DNA from: an uncultured archaeon
GTDB lineage: Archaea; Halobacteriota; Methanosarcinia; Methanosarcinales; Methanoperedenaceae
Assembly: GCA_902384525.1 (NCBI GenBank)
Contig: CABMCA010000112.1
Span: 1 to 33,469 of the forward strand
Direction of reading: 5' to 3'
DNA: 33,469 nt
Position numbers and translations under genes: made by a program
Notes under the pieces: generated by a model
The model's input: only the letters and a program-made list of their open reading frames with translations
The model's database searches: none
What the model was told of the DNA's origin: nothing
In this document: positions 1-33,171 of the stretch, piece by piece
Position numbering within the stretch: position 1 is the stretch's first letter
How the letters are laid out: each line of letters starts with the position of its first letter

Positions 1-446
1 CTTATAACAGGTATTCCGGTTTTCTCATGTATATAACGGCGCACTTCCCGTCTTACAATGGCCGCTTCCGCGCACCTGAAACACGTTGCAACAAAAACAG
101 CATCTACATGCTCTTTCCCTGTTAAGATTGATTTTTAGCTCGCCATCATAAGCCGAACGTCAGGACTTTCCACTTTCAATCCGAATTACTCTTCTATCGA
201 TTCGACATCGGCAATATCAATCTCAGGATAAACCATTATAGCATTGACCTGCTTTGCAGCCGAATCGATTTCATCCTGTATTCCGCTGTATTCTGCGCCG
301 CATGAAAGCTGGGCTACCCTCACAAGATTTTCAGTTGCCGTTATTTTTTTTAAAGCATGTCCGATACCTGGAGCGATCTCTTTCTCTTCCCCGCATCCGG
401 CACATGATGCCTGGTTTATAGTATTATTATCATTTTGCGCACTCAT
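1..446 (-). pseudogene. mmp15: Methanogenesis marker protein 15, interrupted by two in-frame TAA codons; runs off the window edge
   Basis: Mmp15 is a predicted ATPase of the BadF/BcrA/HgdC activator type, found with MCR. The frame opens at 446 (ATG, with GGAGG upstream inside mmp5) and shares ATGA with the mmp5 stop. It encodes a Cys-rich leader (CAGC near residue 15) and then the family segment around RVAQLSCGAEYSGIQ. TAA stands at 188-186. Past it the same frame continues with FGLKVESPDVRLMMAS, meets a second TAA at 137-135, and then continues with VDAVFVATCFRCAEAAIV and REVRRYIHEKTGIPVI to the window edge, all recognisable Mmp15 sequence. Because family sequence carries on without a frame change, these look like nonsense mutations or sequence errors rather than a true C-terminus. 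Neighbouring genes end with TAA, so general TAA reassignment is excluded. The family name rests on recalled homologues. Confidence 0.75.
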
Positions 447-895
447 TTCATTTCCTCCGCAGGTTTGAGTGATTTCAGGAATTCGGAAATTTTATAAACG
501 AATAACTTTGCATCCTCTTCAGTGCTTGGATAATCCAATTTCAATATTGGGATTTTTTTACCCCTCAACAGGAAATTGACAAGTTCATTTGTCCTTGCGC
601 ATCCCATGCAGCCAAATGAAATAACCGGATCGTTAACAATTATTGCTGCTTCTGCTTTTGTGAGAAGAGGATCTAATAGCGACATACGTCCCCTTACTCC
701 TGCCGGAACTTCGACAGCCGCATATTTTAATCCGAATTTAGGGTCTTCAGGAGTAATGTTCATGGGTGGAGAATCCAGTCCCTGGCTTCTGACTTTTTTC
801 CCTATTTCCTGCATTATCGCAAGCGGCTCATGACCGAATCGTTCAACCAGGTCATAAAGAATAAGACTGTTTGTCGGGTAAATAAAAACCTTCAT
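443..895 (-). CDS. mmp5: Methanogenesis marker protein 5
   Basis: This 150-residue protein matches the marker 5 family (TIGR03271), found essentially only in archaea with MCR; its biochemical role is not established. Recognisable parts are the N-terminus MKVFIYPTNSLILYDLVERFGHEP cut short here as MKVFIYPTNS, the GLKYAAVEVPAGVRGRMSL segment near residues 56-74, and the Cys pair in FGCMGCARTNELV near residues 94-106. Its length is normal for the family. It overlaps mmp6 upstream and mmp15 downstream by 4 bases each (ATGA), so the operon is translationally coupled. Confidence 0.9.
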   Translation of the reverse strand: MKVFIYPTNSLILYDLVERFGHEPLAIMQEIGKKVRSQGLDSPPMNITPEDPKFGLKYAAVEVPAGVRGRMSLLDPLLTKAEAAIIVNDPVISFGCMGCARTNELVNFLLRGKKIPILKLDYPSTEEDAKLFVYKISEFLKSLKPAEEMK

Positions 896-1320
896 TTTGA
901 TACCTCTGTTTCTTTTATTATTGCTTTTAGTTTATCGATGTCGAGTTTTTTCGTTTGTTTTTTTTGTCCCGGGATCTCGCCTCTGTCAAGGGCTTTTAAA
1001 GCAGATGCGATATGGGGCAATATCTTATCCTCAGTTTCAAGGTTATGAAATCCTGGTCTTGCGCCGCCGCGCCTGGTAGCCCTGCAGCGAAAAGGTTCAC
1101 CCGGCGCAAAGCCCCTCTCTTTTATGAAAATACCGTATGGGTCTAATTTGCGAATGTTCGAAAGGAGCGGATCCAGTATCGCGCGTTCCCCGGAAACCAT
1201 AATACCAAAACAAGTTTCCTTTACCATGATATCATCTTTTGTTTCATAAAGTTTCATAGCAACATCGCTTGGGAGTAATTTTGATGAGTTTATCACGATC
1301 ATTTTAGTTATTTTTTCCAT
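892..1320 (-). CDS. mmp6: Methanogenesis marker protein 6
   Basis: This 142-residue protein is of the marker 6 family (TIGR03272), restricted to methanogens and their anaerobic methanotroph relatives. Family features are the N-terminal KMIVINSSKLLPSD, the central VKETCFGIMVSGER, and the basic patch RGFAPGEPFRCRATRRGG near residues 69-86. A Lys-rich tail of about 30 residues follows. The ATG overlaps the TAA of mmp3 by one base (TAATG), and the stop overlaps the mmp5 start (ATGA). It is presumably made together with AtwA and Mmp3 for MCR maturation or activation; its exact role is unknown. Confidence 0.9.
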   Translation of the reverse strand: MEKITKMIVINSSKLLPSDVAMKLYETKDDIMVKETCFGIMVSGERAILDPLLSNIRKLDPYGIFIKERGFAPGEPFRCRATRRGGARPGFHNLETEDKILPHIASALKALDRGEIPGQKKQTKKLDIDKLKAIIKETEVSK

Positions 1321-2837
1321 TATGAAACCTCCCTTATGTAAATTATATCGTCTGTCTTCATACCTTTAAGGCGCTCAGGTTCCAGGACTTTTCCGATAAT
1401 GTTCGTGGATTCGAATTTCTCACCTGTCGGGCCATATTTATCATCGTCGATAAGTTTTACACCTACCATACCATATCGTTTTGCAGCCTGGTTGGTGACA
1501 CCGATCTCTCCTGCTTTTATCTTTCCTTTTGGTGTATTCTCGGGATTTATTTCTTTATACGTTTGTGCCTCTTTTTCCGGCCTGAAAAGGAAAGTATTTT
1601 CATATGTATATATTATGGGCAGGGGGCCCAGTGGCCTGTCCTTAAGACGCAGGGAATGCCTGAAGAAATCAAGAGTTATAGGCGCAAGATCATCGTAAAA
1701 CTGTACATTGATTATTTTATCGGCTTTTACCCCGAGAGCTGTGACCCCGCCCTCTGCGATAATCCCTATTGTTGTATCCGGTACCTGTTCTACAACAATG
1801 GCATCATCATCTGTATAGCCTCTCCTTTCAAGTTTCAAACCCCTCAAATTTAATACATTTTCAGCATTCTTAAAAGTCATTCCCTGTACCATGACCCTCT
1901 CAGGATTTGCAACCACAGCAAGAGTACTATTTAAAGGAGCTATTTTAATTAGTTCGATACCATTGGAAACATGCCCGACAACGCTATGTACAGGGCTTGA
2001 AGTCCGGTCTTCTTTGTAAATGTATACCCGTCCATTTCCCTGCCCATCTGTCCGGACCACTACTGAGCCCTCTGAACGGGCATCCCAGTGTTCGTATGGG
2101 CATCCTTCTCCCTGGAGTGCATTATCAGAAATGAATGAATTTGAGAATGTACCCGCATGAAAAGTTTTTCTTGTTATCAATGCAAGGAAATGCTCAGCTC
2201 CTTCGGGAGATTCATTAATGAGATCGACATTAAAATAGGTAAAGATCTTCATTCCGTCTTCAAGTGGTGTATTTAGATCCTGTGTAGTTATTTTGTTAAG
2301 AAGTGTTTCCCATTTTATTACCGGTTCTATTTTTAATAAAGTATCGCCCTGCTTGAGGTTTGCTATGATATTTTTACCGCTTATCACCTTTCCAAGAACA
2401 GCACCTTTCGGACCACCATAATCTGAAACATGTTTATCTTTTGCGATCATAAGGTAAGCATTTTTTTGATCATACCCGCCTGTTCCCAGGAATATATCAT
2501 AGCGGTTATATTTTTGCTCGGATCTTTCCACTGTAATATCTGTTTCAAATGGGCCAAAAGCAATTGCATATCGTGATTCCCAGTGCGCCTTCAAATCTTT
2601 AAAAAAATGAGAAAATTTTGTCCATAACGTGGAATCTCCAAAAAGCTCAATCTTTAATTCGCCTTTTGTTGTGAGAATCTTATATTCTGAGGTTGCTTCT
2701 TCCTTTTTGCCGCTTGTTTTCAGGATACCTGTTGTTGTTCCCGGGATATAGAACGCTTTTGCGATTTCCAGGGCATTTTTCAGTGGCAGGTCATCCTTTA
2801 TCTCTAATTTTTGTCCATTAATCTCTATTGAGATCAC
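1320..2837 (-). CDS. mmp3: Methanogenesis marker protein 3 (UPF0288 family)
   Basis: This 505-residue protein is of normal length for marker protein 3 (TIGR03268/UPF0288). The family has a ubiquitin-like N-terminal stretch (about residues 1-60) and cyclophilin-like segments, for example around PKGAVLGKVISGKNI near residue 144 and HSVVGHVSNGIELI near residue 283. As I recall, structural work on the ATP-dependent MCR activation complex lists Mmp3 as a subunit with component A2, McrC, Mmp7 and Mmp17. The start is GTG at 2837, chosen because GGAGG lies 4 bases upstream. It begins 27 bases after the atwA stop in the same operon. Confidence 0.9.
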   Translation of the reverse strand: MISIEINGQKLEIKDDLPLKNALEIAKAFYIPGTTTGILKTSGKKEEATSEYKILTTKGELKIELFGDSTLWTKFSHFFKDLKAHWESRYAIAFGPFETDITVERSEQKYNRYDIFLGTGGYDQKNAYLMIAKDKHVSDYGGPKGAVLGKVISGKNIIANLKQGDTLLKIEPVIKWETLLNKITTQDLNTPLEDGMKIFTYFNVDLINESPEGAEHFLALITRKTFHAGTFSNSFISDNALQGEGCPYEHWDARSEGSVVVRTDGQGNGRVYIYKEDRTSSPVHSVVGHVSNGIELIKIAPLNSTLAVVANPERVMVQGMTFKNAENVLNLRGLKLERRGYTDDDAIVVEQVPDTTIGIIAEGGVTALGVKADKIINVQFYDDLAPITLDFFRHSLRLKDRPLGPLPIIYTYENTFLFRPEKEAQTYKEINPENTPKGKIKAGEIGVTNQAAKRYGMVGVKLIDDDKYGPTGEKFESTNIIGKVLEPERLKGMKTDDIIYIREVS

Positions 2838-2864
2838 TTATCCTCCAGCTATTGGTATAATTAT

Positions 2865-4493
2865 TTATTTTAATTCTTTAGCTATCCCTTGAAGAGCTTC
2901 TTCCCGCTCTTTCCGGGAAAGTTTTGATAAAACATCGCCCGTTTCACCGATGTCAACTATTTTGCCAAGACGCATTAATGCTGCCCTGTCGCAGATCTCA
3001 GCGACAAAATCCATATCGTGGGATACTATGACAAAAGTTTCTCCTATTTCTTTCCTGGCATTCAGGATAGATTTTGAAACTTCAATTTTGGTAACTGGAT
3101 CCATTGTTCCTGTGGGCTCATCAAAAACAAGTATCCTGGGCTCTTTGATGAGTACCTGTGCCATTGCAACCCTATGCCTTTCCCCTTCACTCAATTCATC
3201 CGGCATCTTGGCCAGGATTTCTTTTGCCTTTTTTTCCGTGAAACCTGATGTTACCAGTGTATGGATCGCTTTTCTCTCTGCCAGTTCAAACGGCAGGTCA
3301 AGACCAATAGACTCAGTCAGGTTATCGATAATATTCCTATGTGGATAAAGACTGTATTCCTGGTGCAGTACACCAATATATTTTGTAGCGCGTCCTTTCT
3401 TGTCAGGCCCAAGCTGTGTCAGGTCGATCCACTCATCCCCGATTCTCACGTCAATTGAACCTGAAGTTGGTCTTAATAATCCGGAAATTATCTTTGAGGT
3501 CGTGGTTTTTCCTGCCCCGCTGACCCCGATTATTCCGAATATCTCACCTTCATTAATATCAAAACTGACATCATTGACAGCCCTTACTATACCCCTGTCC
3601 AGGGAAAAATAGGTCATCTGGAGATTGCGCCCCCTGATAATTGTTTCTCCGATACTGACTTCTTCCTGTTCGCCAACTGTTCCAACTTCTTTCATAAATT
3701 CAGCCGCGACTTCAGAAGGTTTCCCCATCATTACGATTTTTCCTTCATCAAGCCATATTGCCTTGTGTGAAAGCTCTTCAATTACTTTTGGCCAGTGGGA
3801 TGTGATGATGAGTGTCATATTGAAATTCTTTGTTGCATTTACAATACTATCATGCACAAGTTCGGCAGTCTTGGGATCAAGAGTACCGGTCGGTTCATCT
3901 GCGAGCAATATTATAGGGCTTTTGACAAGCTGCCTTGCAAGCACTACACGTTGTTTTTCACCGCCTGAAAGCTCCCTTGCAATATGCATCATCCTGTTGG
4001 AAAGATTTACCTGTTCAAGCAGGTCTGCTGCCTTATGAATGGCATTTGGCCCCATCTGGTCAATTTCCTGAAGTGCATTCATGACATTTACGATAACTCT
4101 TTCATCTCCATATAATGCAAATGTTCTCTGGAGCATGATAGCGATCCTTCTGGTTATGTCTCTTCGCACCGGATCGTGAATTGACATTGTTACGAAATCT
4201 GCATCAAGTTTCTCATAATTGGCGTTGCATTTGGGACAGGGAGTTCCCACCTTACTTGGTTTTTCTATGGACCCACATTTAGCGCATTGAGCCAGGTGAT
4301 ATATTACGCTTCCTGAAATGTCATTAAATTTTTCCACACCTCGCAGGACATGCATAAGTATGGATTTTCCTGCGCTGCTTTTTCCTAAGATTCCAAGAAT
4401 TTCTCCTTCGTTGATGTTAATATTTATATCACTGAGAACATCGACTCCGTCAAAGCCAACACGAAGATTTTTAATTTCGATAAATAGCGTCAT
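2865..4493 (-). CDS. atwA: Methyl-coenzyme M reductase activation ATPase, component A2
   Basis: AtwA is a soluble twin-ABC ATPase that drives reductive activation of the F430 nickel in MCR. The 542-residue chain holds two ABC domains. The first has Walker A GKSSAGKS (37-44), signature LSGGEKQR and Walker [10 protein letters not shown]. The second has Walker A GVSGAGKTT, signature LSEGERHR and Walker B ILVFDEPTG. A zinc-ribbon insert with C70, C73, C86 and C89 follows the first Walker A, a hallmark of the component A2 family (TIGR03269). No membrane segment is present, consistent with a non-transport ABC protein. It is the first gene of the operon; a TATA-like ACTTATAG (4542-4549, read on the minus strand) and a 24-bp palindrome lie just upstream. 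Confidence 0.93.
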   Translation of the reverse strand: MTLFIEIKNLRVGFDGVDVLSDINININEGEILGILGKSSAGKSILMHVLRGVEKFNDISGSVIYHLAQCAKCGSIEKPSKVGTPCPKCNANYEKLDADFVTMSIHDPVRRDITRRIAIMLQRTFALYGDERVIVNVMNALQEIDQMGPNAIHKAADLLEQVNLSNRMMHIARELSGGEKQRVVLARQLVKSPIILLADEPTGTLDPKTAELVHDSIVNATKNFNMTLIITSHWPKVIEELSHKAIWLDEGKIVMMGKPSEVAAEFMKEVGTVGEQEEVSIGETIIRGRNLQMTYFSLDRGIVRAVNDVSFDINEGEIFGIIGVSGAGKTTTSKIISGLLRPTSGSIDVRIGDEWIDLTQLGPDKKGRATKYIGVLHQEYSLYPHRNIIDNLTESIGLDLPFELAERKAIHTLVTSGFTEKKAKEILAKMPDELSEGERHRVAMAQVLIKEPRILVFDEPTGTMDPVTKIEVSKSILNARKEIGETFVIVSHDMDFVAEICDRAALMRLGKIVDIGETGDVLSKLSRKEREEALQGIAKELK

Positions 4494-15609: not shown

Positions 15610-15710
15610 TGGTCACATGAGGTAAATTATTGTACATATTACCTTCGGCAACTTTATAACGAAAAAGTGTATTAAAAAGATAATTGGGAAAATACCTAAA
15701 TAGTATTGGC

Positions 15711-15741
15711 ACCATATATAGTTCGTATAGATACGAATAAA
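15711..15741 (+). promoter_or_regulatory. nifB promoter with palindromic operator TTCGTA-N4-TACGAA
   Basis: A TATA box (CATATATAG, 15713-15721) runs straight into TTCGTATAGATACGAA (15722-15737), a perfect 6-bp inverted repeat with a 4-base centre, followed by TAAA. The same arrangement, down to TATAG before and TAAA after the palindrome, stands before the DUF1858 gene at 28448-28471. A factor bound here would block initiation, so a repressor is the simpler reading. The factor is unknown; the site does not fit the NrpR consensus GGAA-N6-TTCC. Confidence 0.65.
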
Positions 15742-15754
15742 TGTGAGGAAAGAC

Positions 15755-16645
15755 ATGAAAAAAGAACGCTGGGATAACTTAGGCTCAAAATTTGCGCATC
15801 TTACGAGCGCTCACCCGTGTTATAATGAAAAAGCGCATTTCACGACAGCAAGGATACACCTGCCGGTTGCGCCGCGCTGTAATATACAGTGCAATTATTG
15901 TATCCGGAAATTAGATAAATGCGAGCACAGGCCAGGTGTTGCAGGAAGTATTCTTAATCCCCGCGAAGCCCTTGTAAGGCTTGATAAATATGCAAAGGAA
16001 ATGCAAAATCTCAAGGTCGTGGGTATCGCCGGACCCGGTGAGTCTCTTGCAAATGAAGACAGCTTTGAAACCATGCGCCTTGTGCATGAAAAATATCCCG
16101 GACTTATAAAATGCGTGGCAAGCAACGGTCTTATGCTTTCCGAAAGGGTGGATGACCTTGTTAAAGCCGGAGTAACAAGTGTCACTGTAACAATAAACGC
16201 AGTTGACCCTGAGGTAGGCGCAAAGATATATTCCTTCGTCCGGTACCATGATAAAACATATAAAGGTGTGGAAGCCGCAAAACTCCTGATCGAGAAACAG
16301 TTCGAAGGGATAAAGAAGGCAAGCGAGGCCGGACTGAATGTTAAAGTCAACACTGTGCTTATTCCTGAGATCAACTTTTCCCAGATAAAGGAAATCGCAA
16401 AAAAAGCAGCAGAGAACGGCGCAATAATAATGAATATCATTCCAATGATACCCCTTAACAAGTTTGAAAAGGAAAGACCCCCGGATTGCGATGAACTCAA
16501 TATGGCAAGAACCATTGCGGAAGAATTCCTGCCGCAGTTTCGGCTGTGCAGGCAGTGCAGGGCAGATGCGGTTGGTGTCCCGGGTGCAGAACCTTGCGGC
16601 TCACCAGTGCAGCAGCGCACAACCAGTGAATATTATCATGCTTAA
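15755..16645 (+). CDS. nifB: NifB, radical SAM synthase of the 8Fe-9S-C cluster precursor
   Basis: NifB fuses two 4Fe-4S units with a SAM-derived carbon to give NifB-co. The 296-residue protein is the short archaeal form without a NifX-like tail. The radical SAM motif is CNIQCNYC (C42, C46, C49). Further NifB marks are SAHPCYNEKAHF near residue 18, GIAGPGESLAN near 95, ASNGLML near 128 and the C-terminal CRQCRADAVGVPG. ATG 15755 was preferred, as GTGAGG lies 6 bases upstream; a GTG at 15743 would add four residues. No nitrogenase genes are in the window; a zinc-ribbon gene follows by 38 bases. NifB also occurs in non-diazotrophic methanogens, so a nitrogenase-independent use is possible. Confidence 0.93.
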   Translation: MKKERWDNLGSKFAHLTSAHPCYNEKAHFTTARIHLPVAPRCNIQCNYCIRKLDKCEHRPGVAGSILNPREALVRLDKYAKEMQNLKVVGIAGPGESLANEDSFETMRLVHEKYPGLIKCVASNGLMLSERVDDLVKAGVTSVTVTINAVDPEVGAKIYSFVRYHDKTYKGVEAAKLLIEKQFEGIKKASEAGLNVKVNTVLIPEINFSQIKEIAKKAAENGAIIMNIIPMIPLNKFEKERPPDCDELNMARTIAEEFLPQFRLCRQCRADAVGVPGAEPCGSPVQQRTTSEYYHA

Positions 16646-28221: not shown

Positions 28222-28434
28222 TCAGGGCTTTTGTTTTCTTGATGAGATGACTTTATTCAGGTCAGCCACAAGCGCATCTACATTGATACCATGCGCCATT
28301 GCGCCATCTTCGATGCTTTCAAAACTAGAGACATGGCATCCCACGCAATGCAGGCCGTGTTTCATAAATACCATCATGGTTTCCGGATACTGTGTTACAA
28401 CTTCCTCAATTTTGATATCTTTTGTTATGGTCAT
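28222..28434 (-). CDS. DUF1858 redox-disulfide domain protein
   Basis: This 70-residue protein has the DUF1858 pattern (TIGR03980, hybrid-cluster-protein-associated redox disulfide domain): I-x2-VV-x-YPETM-x2-FMKHGLHCVGCH, with the redox pair C30-x2-C33, then SFESIEDGAMAHG and a C-terminal helix. It is expected in thiol or Fe-S redox control in the cytoplasm. Its promoter carries the same palindrome as nifB, and nifS-nifU are divergent from it, which links it to Fe-S cluster assembly. GTAGGAG lies 7 bases before the ATG. Confidence 0.88.
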   Translation of the reverse strand: MTITKDIKIEEVVTQYPETMMVFMKHGLHCVGCHVSSFESIEDGAMAHGINVDALVADLNKVISSRKQKP

Positions 28435-28447
28435 AATATACTCCTAC

Positions 28448-28474
28448 TTTATTCGTATGGTTACGAACTATAAT
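28448..28474 (-). promoter_or_regulatory. DUF1858 gene promoter with the nifB-type operator
   Basis: Read on the minus strand, TTTATTATAG is followed by TTCGTAACCATACGAA (28467-28452) and TAAA, then the ribosome-binding site. The 6-bp arms TTCGTA and TACGAA match the nifB site exactly, only the 4-base centre differs, and the position after TATAG is identical. This near-copy in a second promoter argues for one shared regulator. Confidence 0.65.
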
Positions 28475-28529
28475 AAAGCTTTCTAACCCGCATAATATAA
28501 TTGGAGTTTTTCATGCTTAAACCTGTCTT

Positions 28530-30171: not shown

Positions 30172-32124
30172 CTAAGGCTCAATTACATCCACGTCTATAT
30201 TAGCTGGAATGAAATATAAATCGGAGTATCCATCGTTACTTTTTGCGATTATTCCATTCTTAATCAGAACATTCAGATGATGCCTGATAGTCTTATAATC
30301 CATATTCAAAGCTGTTGCTAATTGATTTGCATTATAAGATTTATCAGAAAGATGTTTCAGGATCAATGCCCGGGTCTTTCCTCCGCGCGTACCTTTAATC
30401 AGATAACATAGCAGCTTATGTTGTTTATTGGATTTCCTGAGTTCCTGTTTCAATAATCTATTTTCAGTAATATCCCTGGCTATCCCATGAATTTCTATTG
30501 TTCTATCACCATCTTTGATCTCCCTGGTTTTTATCTCAACCCACCTGTGCTCCCCATTCTTGCACACGACCTCAAGTATATCTGTCTGTTCCACCCTTTC
30601 TCCAGAGAGACGTTTTTTCCGGCGTTCTTCGACTATTACCAGACTCTCTGGCGTGACCCATTTACTAATATTAGTACCAATAACTTCCTCTTTTTTACCT
30701 CCAAGTGTTTGAAGCCCTACCCGGTTCATTTTCAAAAAATTGCCTTCATTATCGAGCACATACATGGCATCCTGGGCGTTTTCAAAGAGGTCGCGGTATT
30801 TTTCTTCGGACTCCCTGAGTTCCTTCTCCAGATTCATTTTCTCGGTTATATCCCTCATTATACCATGTGTACCGATGATTTTATTTCCATCTTTAATAAG
30901 CCTTGTTCTTGCTTCGCCCCATTTATGTTCTCCTTTCTTGTTTATCGCTTCTATGACGACAGTCGGCTCTAAAGGCTGGTTTAAGAAAATCTTCCTGGAA
31001 CGGTCTTCAATTTTTTTAACACTTTCAGGCGTCACCCACTGCCGAATATTTGATCCGATTATTTCTTCTTCGGTCACGTCGAGTAATTTCAATCCGATTT
31101 TATTAATACTCAGGATATTTCCCTTCAAATCGTGTGTATATATAAAATCATTAGCATTTTCAAAGAGGTCCCGAAACTTTGCCTCCGATTCCTCCAATTC
31201 TAATTCAATTTTCTGTTGTTTTGTAATATCTTTAGTGATATATAAAAATTTTTTTACTCCATCAATAATCATTTCAGCACGAGAATTTAACAAATATCGT
31301 ATCTCACCTTCTTTAGTGAGTATTTTAGCGTCTGCAATTTTTCCGCTATTTAAGCTGTTTTGATCTTCTTGCCAAATTTTGATGTAGGCTTCCTTTATAC
31401 CCTGGGGTAGTATTTTAATGAAAGATTGTCCTAATAGCTCATCTTTCGGCCAGCCCACGATATTGAAAAAAGAGTCATTTCCAAATTCTATTTCACCCTG
31501 CATATTAACAACAGCGATCCCATCAAGGGATGAATCAATTATCGTTTTAAGATATTTTTCTGACTTATATAATTTATCATATATTTCTTTTATTTTATCT
31601 TCAGTACACCTGCCGTTCTGGATAATGGATGATGCCTGTGAGGCGGCGATAGTTACGAAATCAATCTCTTCTTCAGTAAAGTCATGGACTGTTGACATAT
31701 AGATATTTAAGAGACCAATAACTTTCAATCCCTTTTTCATGGGAGTAAATAGTTGAGATCTGATATTGTATATTTTTGCCAATTTACACCAGGGTCCTGC
31801 AAGGGGTTCTTTATATATATCCGGAACAACATAATAATGACCCGTTTTCAATACGGCTCCCGAAGGGCTTGAGGATAATGGTACGCCTGCTTCTCTTGCT
31901 TCCATGTGAACCTGCTCAATATAATCTTCCCGAAGACCAAACGATGAGGCTATCCTGAGTTCACCGGTCTCTTCATCGACCAGTATTATTGTGCCAGAAT
32001 TTGCATTCATGGATTCACATGTAATACTCAGGATTTTTTGAAGGATTTCATCAAATCCTGAGGTGATATCTATTGAAGCAACATCTAAGAGGGCCTTTAA
32101 TTTTACATTTTTATTTATGGACAT
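30172..32124 (-). CDS. GAF-PAS-PAS-PAS regulator with C-terminal winged-helix DNA-binding domain
   Basis: The 650-residue protein has a GAF domain (about 15-165, SGTIILVDEETGELRIASSFG), then three PAS domains (about 195-310, 320-440 and 445-565; note DLFENANDFIYTHD and DLFENAQDAMYVLD, which show a recent internal duplication), each followed by a PAC-type DITE segment. The last 75 residues are a winged helix of the ArsR/MarR style (RALILKHLSDKSYNANQLATALNMDYKTIRHHLNVL, in part). There is no kinase or HATPase domain, so it should act as a one-component sensor that binds DNA directly. It converges with nifU with a 10-base gap. The signal is unknown; GAF and PAS may bind haem, flavin or small ligands. 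Confidence 0.88.
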   Translation of the reverse strand: MSINKNVKLKALLDVASIDITSGFDEILQKILSITCESMNANSGTIILVDEETGELRIASSFGLREDYIEQVHMEAREAGVPLSSSPSGAVLKTGHYYVVPDIYKEPLAGPWCKLAKIYNIRSQLFTPMKKGLKVIGLLNIYMSTVHDFTEEEIDFVTIAASQASSIIQNGRCTEDKIKEIYDKLYKSEKYLKTIIDSSLDGIAVVNMQGEIEFGNDSFFNIVGWPKDELLGQSFIKILPQGIKEAYIKIWQEDQNSLNSGKIADAKILTKEGEIRYLLNSRAEMIIDGVKKFLYITKDITKQQKIELELEESEAKFRDLFENANDFIYTHDLKGNILSINKIGLKLLDVTEEEIIGSNIRQWVTPESVKKIEDRSRKIFLNQPLEPTVVIEAINKKGEHKWGEARTRLIKDGNKIIGTHGIMRDITEKMNLEKELRESEEKYRDLFENAQDAMYVLDNEGNFLKMNRVGLQTLGGKKEEVIGTNISKWVTPESLVIVEERRKKRLSGERVEQTDILEVVCKNGEHRWVEIKTREIKDGDRTIEIHGIARDITENRLLKQELRKSNKQHKLLCYLIKGTRGGKTRALILKHLSDKSYNANQLATALNMDYKTIRHHLNVLIKNGIIAKSNDGYSDLYFIPANIDVDVIEP

Positions 32125-32505: not shown

Positions 32506-33171
32506 TCACGAAACCACTCTTCCATCCTTTATCCTGATTATCCTGTCTGCTTTCTCGCCAAGTTCAGGTTCATGCGTCACCATGACAATAGTCTGTCCTT
32601 TTTCGTTCAATTCGCGAAATAGTCCGACTATCTGGTTTGAGGACTCTGTATCAAGATTTGCCGTCGGTTCATCCGCAAGAAGGATTGCAGGCTCATTCGC
32701 AAGTGCCCGGGCAATTGCTATGCGCTGCTGCTGCCCACCCGAAAGCTCACTTGGATAATGCGCCGCCCTGTCACCTATTCCCACAAGCTCCAGAAGTGAA
32801 CTTGCGCGATCATATTTTCGATCATCCATTATCATCGGGAGTGCAACATTTTCAAGCGAATTCAGTTCCTTAAGCAAGCTGAAGAACTGGAAAACAAACC
32901 CCATTTTCCTGAGCCGAAAATCAGCTCTCTCATTATCATCAAGAGAAGACACTTCGATCCCATCGATAACGATTCCACCCGATGTTGGAGTATCAAGAAG
33001 GCCAATCATATTTAAAAGCGTTGACTTTCCGCTACCGGATGGACCCATAAGCGCAACGAATTCACCCTTCTCGATCATAAGGTCTATCCCCCTGAGAGCA
33101 TGAACCTCAATTTTTCCCATATAATATATTTTCTTAAGGCTATCGATCTTGATCAAACCTATCCACTCCAT
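32506..33171 (-). CDS. ABC transporter ATP-binding protein, MacB/LolD type
   Basis: The 221-residue ATPase has Walker [10 protein letters not shown] near residue 43, Q-loop [21 protein letters not shown], signature [17 protein letters not shown], Walker [13 protein letters not shown] and switch His in VTHEPE. This set, with the [11 protein letters not shown] loop, is typical of ATPases that work with FtsX/MacB-like permeases in export or mechanotransmission. Its start overlaps the permease gene by 13 bases, so the two are made together. The substrate is unknown. Confidence 0.92.

Follow-up and report, generated by a model that had tools for sequence, protein, structure and literature searches.

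The window, by which we mean the whole stretch of 33,469 nucleotides analysed here, is one contig (C112) of a 2.92-Mb genome of Ca. Methanoperedens, a methane-consuming archaeon of the Methanoperedenaceae. A pattern scan of the window finds two exact copies of the palindrome TTCGTA-N4-TACGAA, one ahead of nifB (TTCGTATAGATACGAA, 15722–15737, plus strand) and one ahead of a DUF1858 gene (28452–28467, TTCGTATGGTTACGAA as read forward and TTCGTAACCATACGAA on the minus strand). No further match appears in the window at up to two mismatches, a looseness at which chance alone would yield about 1.2. This confirms the earlier note's report of two palindromes with identical arms and no other such pair. 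A third, looser match (TTCG-N9-CGAA, 32602–32618) lies within an ABC-ATPase gene at chance level and was rejected as an operator.

The nifB and DUF1858 promoters

The nifB gene (15755–16645, plus strand) encodes a radical SAM protein of 296 aa with a Pfam Radical_SAM match. Its best NCBIfam match is nifB, at 295 bits and thus under the cut-off of 343.65, which was set for the longer NifB-NifX form. The start is best placed at the ATG at 15755, 17 bp past the operator and preceded by a Shine-Dalgarno-like TGAGG (15744–15748). Across the genus, the operator is found with at most two mismatches in 24 of 28 orthologous nifB promoters, 17 of them exact, while four orthologues have no clear box. Outside the operator, conservation among 24 aligned nifB promoters is strongest in the block GGGAAAATACCTAWATAGTATT / GGGAAAATACCTAAATAGTATT (15686–15707, plus strand), which probably corresponds to the BRE/TATA region and lies about 14 bp upstream of the operator. 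TATATAG beside the operator (15715–15721, plus strand), which the earlier note took as the TATA box, is not conserved in relatives; the TATATATAG that adjoins the operator is peculiar to this strain.

The nif genes of methanogens are known to be controlled by NrpR, the regulator of the nitrogen regulon, which likewise acts by repression near the promoter but through the operator GGAA-N8-TTCC. The nifB promoter described here differs in that its operator is of the MsvR type, and neither GGAA-N8-TTCC nor even a TTCC half-site is present in 15640–15757.

On the minus strand, the second palindrome precedes the gene of a 70-aa DUF1858 / hybrid-cluster-protein-associated redox disulfide protein (28222–28434; PF08984, 72.7 bits; TIGR03980, 97.9 bits against a cut-off of 44.95), which starts 17 bp past the operator, the same distance as at nifB. 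The BRE/TATA element TTAGAAAGCTTTATTA (28471–28486, minus strand) lies directly upstream of the operator and is near-invariant in 24 promoters. The operator itself is present in 24 of 26 orthologous promoters, within two mismatches by one count and already within one by the other (14 exact), and two orthologues are without a clear box. The proposal that the palindrome abuts a TATA box therefore stands at DUF1858, where the TATA box is conserved, but not at nifB, where the adjoining one is strain-specific. Similarly, the outer bases TATAG...TAAA do match between the two sites but are not conserved among relatives. The shared promoter-operator module as such is borne out, as is its conservation in close relatives at both nifB (24/28) and DUF1858 (24/26).

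Enrichment of the exact palindrome

In the 2.92-Mb genome, 10 exact sites are found against 0.28 expected from base composition (approximately 35-fold), and a reversed-pattern control yields none. Across 24 genomes of the genus there are 145 exact sites as opposed to 12 for the reversed pattern, and across 16 other genomes of the order 4 as opposed to 3. The two outcomes that the earlier note had set against its own idea, namely a motif frequent in random DNA or one missing from the orthologous nifB and DUF1858 promoters, were thus both decided in favor of the motif. Looser versions, with one or two mismatches, are no more frequent in the window or the genome than chance predicts, which agrees with reading the palindromes as chance matches, or as a generic feature of AT-rich promoters with no dedicated regulator. 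That reading has next to no probability given the excess of exact sites and the pattern in orthologous promoters, where the arms stay unchanged but the four-base spacer and the flanking sequence differ, a footprint that already contradicts it; a shuffled promoter reaches one mismatch or fewer with a frequency of 0.0003. Since one-mismatch sites are near background in the genome, only exact or footprint-supported sites are to be trusted. Among IMG/VR viral contigs, 10 exact operator matches were found, none of them with the small RNA described below and all with unrelated flanks.

MsvR as the candidate regulator

The sequence TTCGTAN4TACGAA is the published inverted repeat of MsvR boxes 2/3 (A/B), which is bound by both MthMsvR and MaMsvR in EMSA, and mutating either box abolishes binding of MaMsvR (PMC3729527). 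Measured against this box (TTCGTAN4TACGAA, or relaxed TTCGN7-9CGAA), both window palindromes are exact members. It is therefore very probable that they are operators of MsvR, a redox repressor of methanoarchaea that combines an ArsR-type HTH with a V4R domain, and that they are predicted to be bound by the MsvR protein encoded in the same genome outside the window (G000:C11, L013:727–1467, minus strand). This protein has an N-terminal ArsR-type HTH and a C-terminal V4R domain (PF01022 and PF02830, above gathering score) and scores 258.3 bits against the NCBIfam equivalog NF053755 (cut-off 220). Its Cys203, Cys229 and Cys237 are spaced like C206, C232 and C240 of MaMsvR, at 26 and 8 residues, and 29 of 29 homologues retain them. 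In named genomes, relatives of this MsvR occur in Ca. Methanoperedens sp. BLZ2 (93% identity) and in the Methanosarcinales isolate METP1, which places the genome in Ca. Methanoperedens. The msvR promoter carries a box of its own (TTCGTACATAAACGAA, one mismatch) adjoining TATTTATATTA, and an operator with at most two mismatches lies immediately upstream of the BRE/TATA element in 23 of 23 congeneric msvR promoters. Two families of the order (f3 and f4, 8 genomes) have no MsvR match and no exact site either. Four congeners (G003, G009, G015, and G018) encode a second, more distant MsvR-like protein, and another regulator with the same recognition sequence is formally an alternative to MsvR.

The earlier note had expected a repressor sensing redox state, metal or cluster status, and the redox-sensing part fits well with an MsvR box and an MsvR gene with its cysteines, binding being predicted. 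It had also held the regulator to be unidentifiable from the window, which no longer applies with msvR encoded elsewhere in the genome behind a box in its own promoter. Its nearby candidate, the GAF/PAS/winged-helix protein at 30172–32124, would make the palindrome the property of a different, undescribed metal- or cluster-sensing regulator. This protein does lie in the window near nifS/nifU and has a C-terminal ArsR-type HTH; it lacks a V4R domain, however, and does not match the MsvR model, and the palindrome is an MsvR box that stands ahead of msvR in every congener. The candidate is accordingly rejected as not needed, and such a regulator is very improbable.

The operator assumed for MsvR lies upstream of the BRE/TATA element at msvR, downstream of TATA at DUF1858, and about 14 bp downstream of the conserved block at nifB, and all three layouts would fit steric repression. 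The MsvR proteins of Methanothermobacter thermautotrophicus and Methanosarcina acetivorans are alike in operator, protein architecture and cysteine spacing, and M. acetivorans msvR also shares the self-operator beside its BRE/TATA element (PMC3729527). The targets differ: the known target of M. thermautotrophicus MsvR is the adjacent fpaA-rlp-rub operon, whereas nifB, DUF1858, ahbC and a small-RNA family are predicted in Methanoperedens. A box alone does not prove regulation, since MaMsvR, although it bound at its own promoter, failed to bind those of the oxidative-stress operons that were assayed (PMC3729527). The link between nifB and the operator is lineage-specific, as nine nifB promoters examined in the neighboring family f2 have no box; members of f2 mostly carry MsvR.

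In M. acetivorans, more than 40 promoters bear the motif, and they are described as belonging to the transport of iron and cations, efflux, cell division and other functions (PMC3729527). Compared with that list by its description only, the predicted targets in Methanoperedens are new. The regulon is thus real, and its regulator and site are already known, so that the earlier note's "undescribed regulon" holds for the wider set of targets but not for the type of regulon, the site being the published MsvR box. A search of the open-access literature found no paper joining MsvR and Methanoperedens.

Further genes and a putative small-RNA family behind the operator

Several other genes recur behind exact sites. 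These include ahbC, encoding 12,18-didecarboxysiroheme deacetylase (757 bits over 650; L005, L032, L140, L148, L163), and a 173-aa protein (L001, L021, L167, L132) that has no Pfam or NCBIfam match (L001:1544–2065, plus strand; L132) and carries the operator 20–27 bp upstream in two families of the order, the f2 box being exact at 20 bp. Further examples are a 336-aa protein without a Pfam match (L023, L037, L136), a 96-aa membrane protein (L151, L155, L173, with a one-mismatch site at L011), and a signal-peptidase-like protein (L033, L166). In some congeners an exact site lies 55–214 bp upstream of mcrD (McrD, TIGR03260; L137, L039, L162, L168, L171; L160 at 72 bp). In other congeners, a site corresponding to the mcrD-side box is located approximately 280–356 bp upstream of an HdrC-like Fe-S protein. 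The enrichment before Fe-S genes that the earlier note anticipated is hence too narrow a description, since the predicted targets also include small RNAs and uncharacterized membrane proteins.

Four of the 10 exact sites in the genome have no ORF behind them, and here the operator lies between a strong TATA box and a putative RNA of about 65 nt. The conserved unit in this genome and in many relatives reads CGTAAACTATAAATACTATTG, operator, 2 to 5 nt, RNA. Loci of the RNA family are L002, L004, L009, L012, and L014 in this genome and L179–L208 and L211–L250 in relatives. The predicted RNA consists of a stem of 11 bp, a loop that contains a U-run and a C-rich ACCACCAUAAUCCCC, and a CCUCCU-like tail. 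An RNA-model search returned 4–23 copies per genome in 30 of 30 Methanoperedens genomes, some of them in tandem arrays of up to three. Of the matches that came from the RNA model rather than from the operator, 67 were examined. An operator with at most two mismatches stands 2–5 nt upstream in 54 of them, and most of the remainder form subclasses with another promoter. The operator is present in each of the four sister-genus copies that were read, whereas 17 weaker relatives from other families within the order are without it and have GUGAGCGGG/CCCGCUCAC stems and CCCCCACUCCCC loops. At nine loci (L211, L215, L216, L217, L226, L238, L248, L249, L250), RNA subclasses without the MsvR operator have another TATA-containing promoter and UAAUGGGCAGG or UUGUGGGCAGG stems. 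A second palindrome, TTTAC-N7-GTAAA, is seen upstream of the TATA box in several of the promoters with an operator (L008, L029, L031, L142, L153, L168, L176) and also in small-RNA promoters, and may be the site of another regulator.

Within Methanoperedens, two-sided changes occur in 5 of the 11 stem pairs, and in the order-wide alignment this rises to 9 of 11, with 57 compensated cells versus 18 in shuffles. When the sequence is read in the direction of the promoter, many of the stem variants are G-U pairs, which favors an RNA with the sequence of that strand. The elements could instead be mobile, MITE-like repeats carrying the operator by chance, as they are multi-copy, sometimes tandem, and have terminal inverted repeats; this is unlikely in view of the stem covariation, with its numerous G-U pairs in the orientation predicted as sense, the TATA box at a fixed distance, the single- to few-copy relatives with other promoters in other families of the order, and a stem that is kept while the loops diverge.

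We lean toward a reading in which MsvR in Methanoperedenaceae governs a post-transcriptional arm of undescribed RNAs of about 65 nt. In this reading the RNAs are an ancestral feature shared by several families of the order (1–3 copies), have multiplied in this lineage to 4–23 copies behind MsvR operators, and would pair with G-rich ribosome-binding sites to adjust translation on oxidant exposure. The pairing is suggested by the C-rich loops and CCUCC tails only, as judged from sequence. In the genome, exact complements of the loop (GGGATTATGGTGG) fall mostly in the RNA loci and in apparent coding sequence, and no convincing target was found. Rfam returned no match for the RNA above any gathering score, only chance-level best matches, and open-access literature on Methanoperedens small RNAs gave only unrelated papers. 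It is this operator-linked family, whose expression is predicted, that current descriptions do not cover. Its nearest parallels are sRNA154 and sRNA41 of Methanosarcina mazei, intergenic archaeal sRNAs from the same order that are reported to mask ribosome-binding sites and respond to nitrogen (PMC5867862). By description, the Methanoperedenaceae family differs in being multi-copy, lying behind an MsvR operator and having no Rfam match.

Redox control and its possible purpose

In M. acetivorans, reduced MsvR binds and an oxidant releases it. By analogy with the studied MsvR proteins, a reduced MsvR dimer would occupy the operator, next to the TATA box or across the start site, and block TBP/TFB or RNA polymerase. 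Oxidation of the V4R cysteines would then release MsvR and induce nifB, the redox-disulfide protein DUF1858, ahbC, msvR and a number of small RNAs, with MsvR controlling its own promoter through the same box. Should MsvR behave here as in M. acetivorans, levels of nifB, DUF1858, ahbC and the RNAs would increase on exposure to an oxidant.

The purpose is probably the restoration of oxygen-sensitive metal clusters after such exposure, including NifB-made clusters thought to serve MCR activation. Even methanogens that have no nitrogenase are reported to depend on NifB for survival, and the protein is probably required for L-cluster-like clusters in the MCR activation complex (PMC12176620). The window itself carries an MCR-associated cluster with Mmp5, Mmp6, Mmp3 and MCR activation component A2 (443–4493, minus strand). 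Elsewhere in the genome (L301, G000:C102:29500–36500), nifH and nitrogenase alpha (and beta-like) genes are found above subfamily cut-offs and below the Mo-nifD cut-off, and this stretch has neither an exact nor a two-mismatch MsvR site. An nifD-based suggestion that NifB has no nitrogenase to serve was accordingly rejected, given nifH and a nitrogenase alpha subunit above cut-offs, and NifB may serve both nitrogenase and MCR activation.

Apart from its own promoter and a single operon, targets of MsvR have so far proved difficult to pin down. Conservation over approximately 28 uncultured Methanoperedens genomes gives a defined list of predicted targets and ties the redox sensor to nifB. If confirmed, the small RNAs would represent a multi-copy redox-controlled sRNA family in archaea. 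With NifB reported as essential even in methanogens that lack nitrogenase and with its probable role in MCR activation, the link between MsvR and nifB offers a testable route for the recovery of anaerobic methanotrophs from oxygen.
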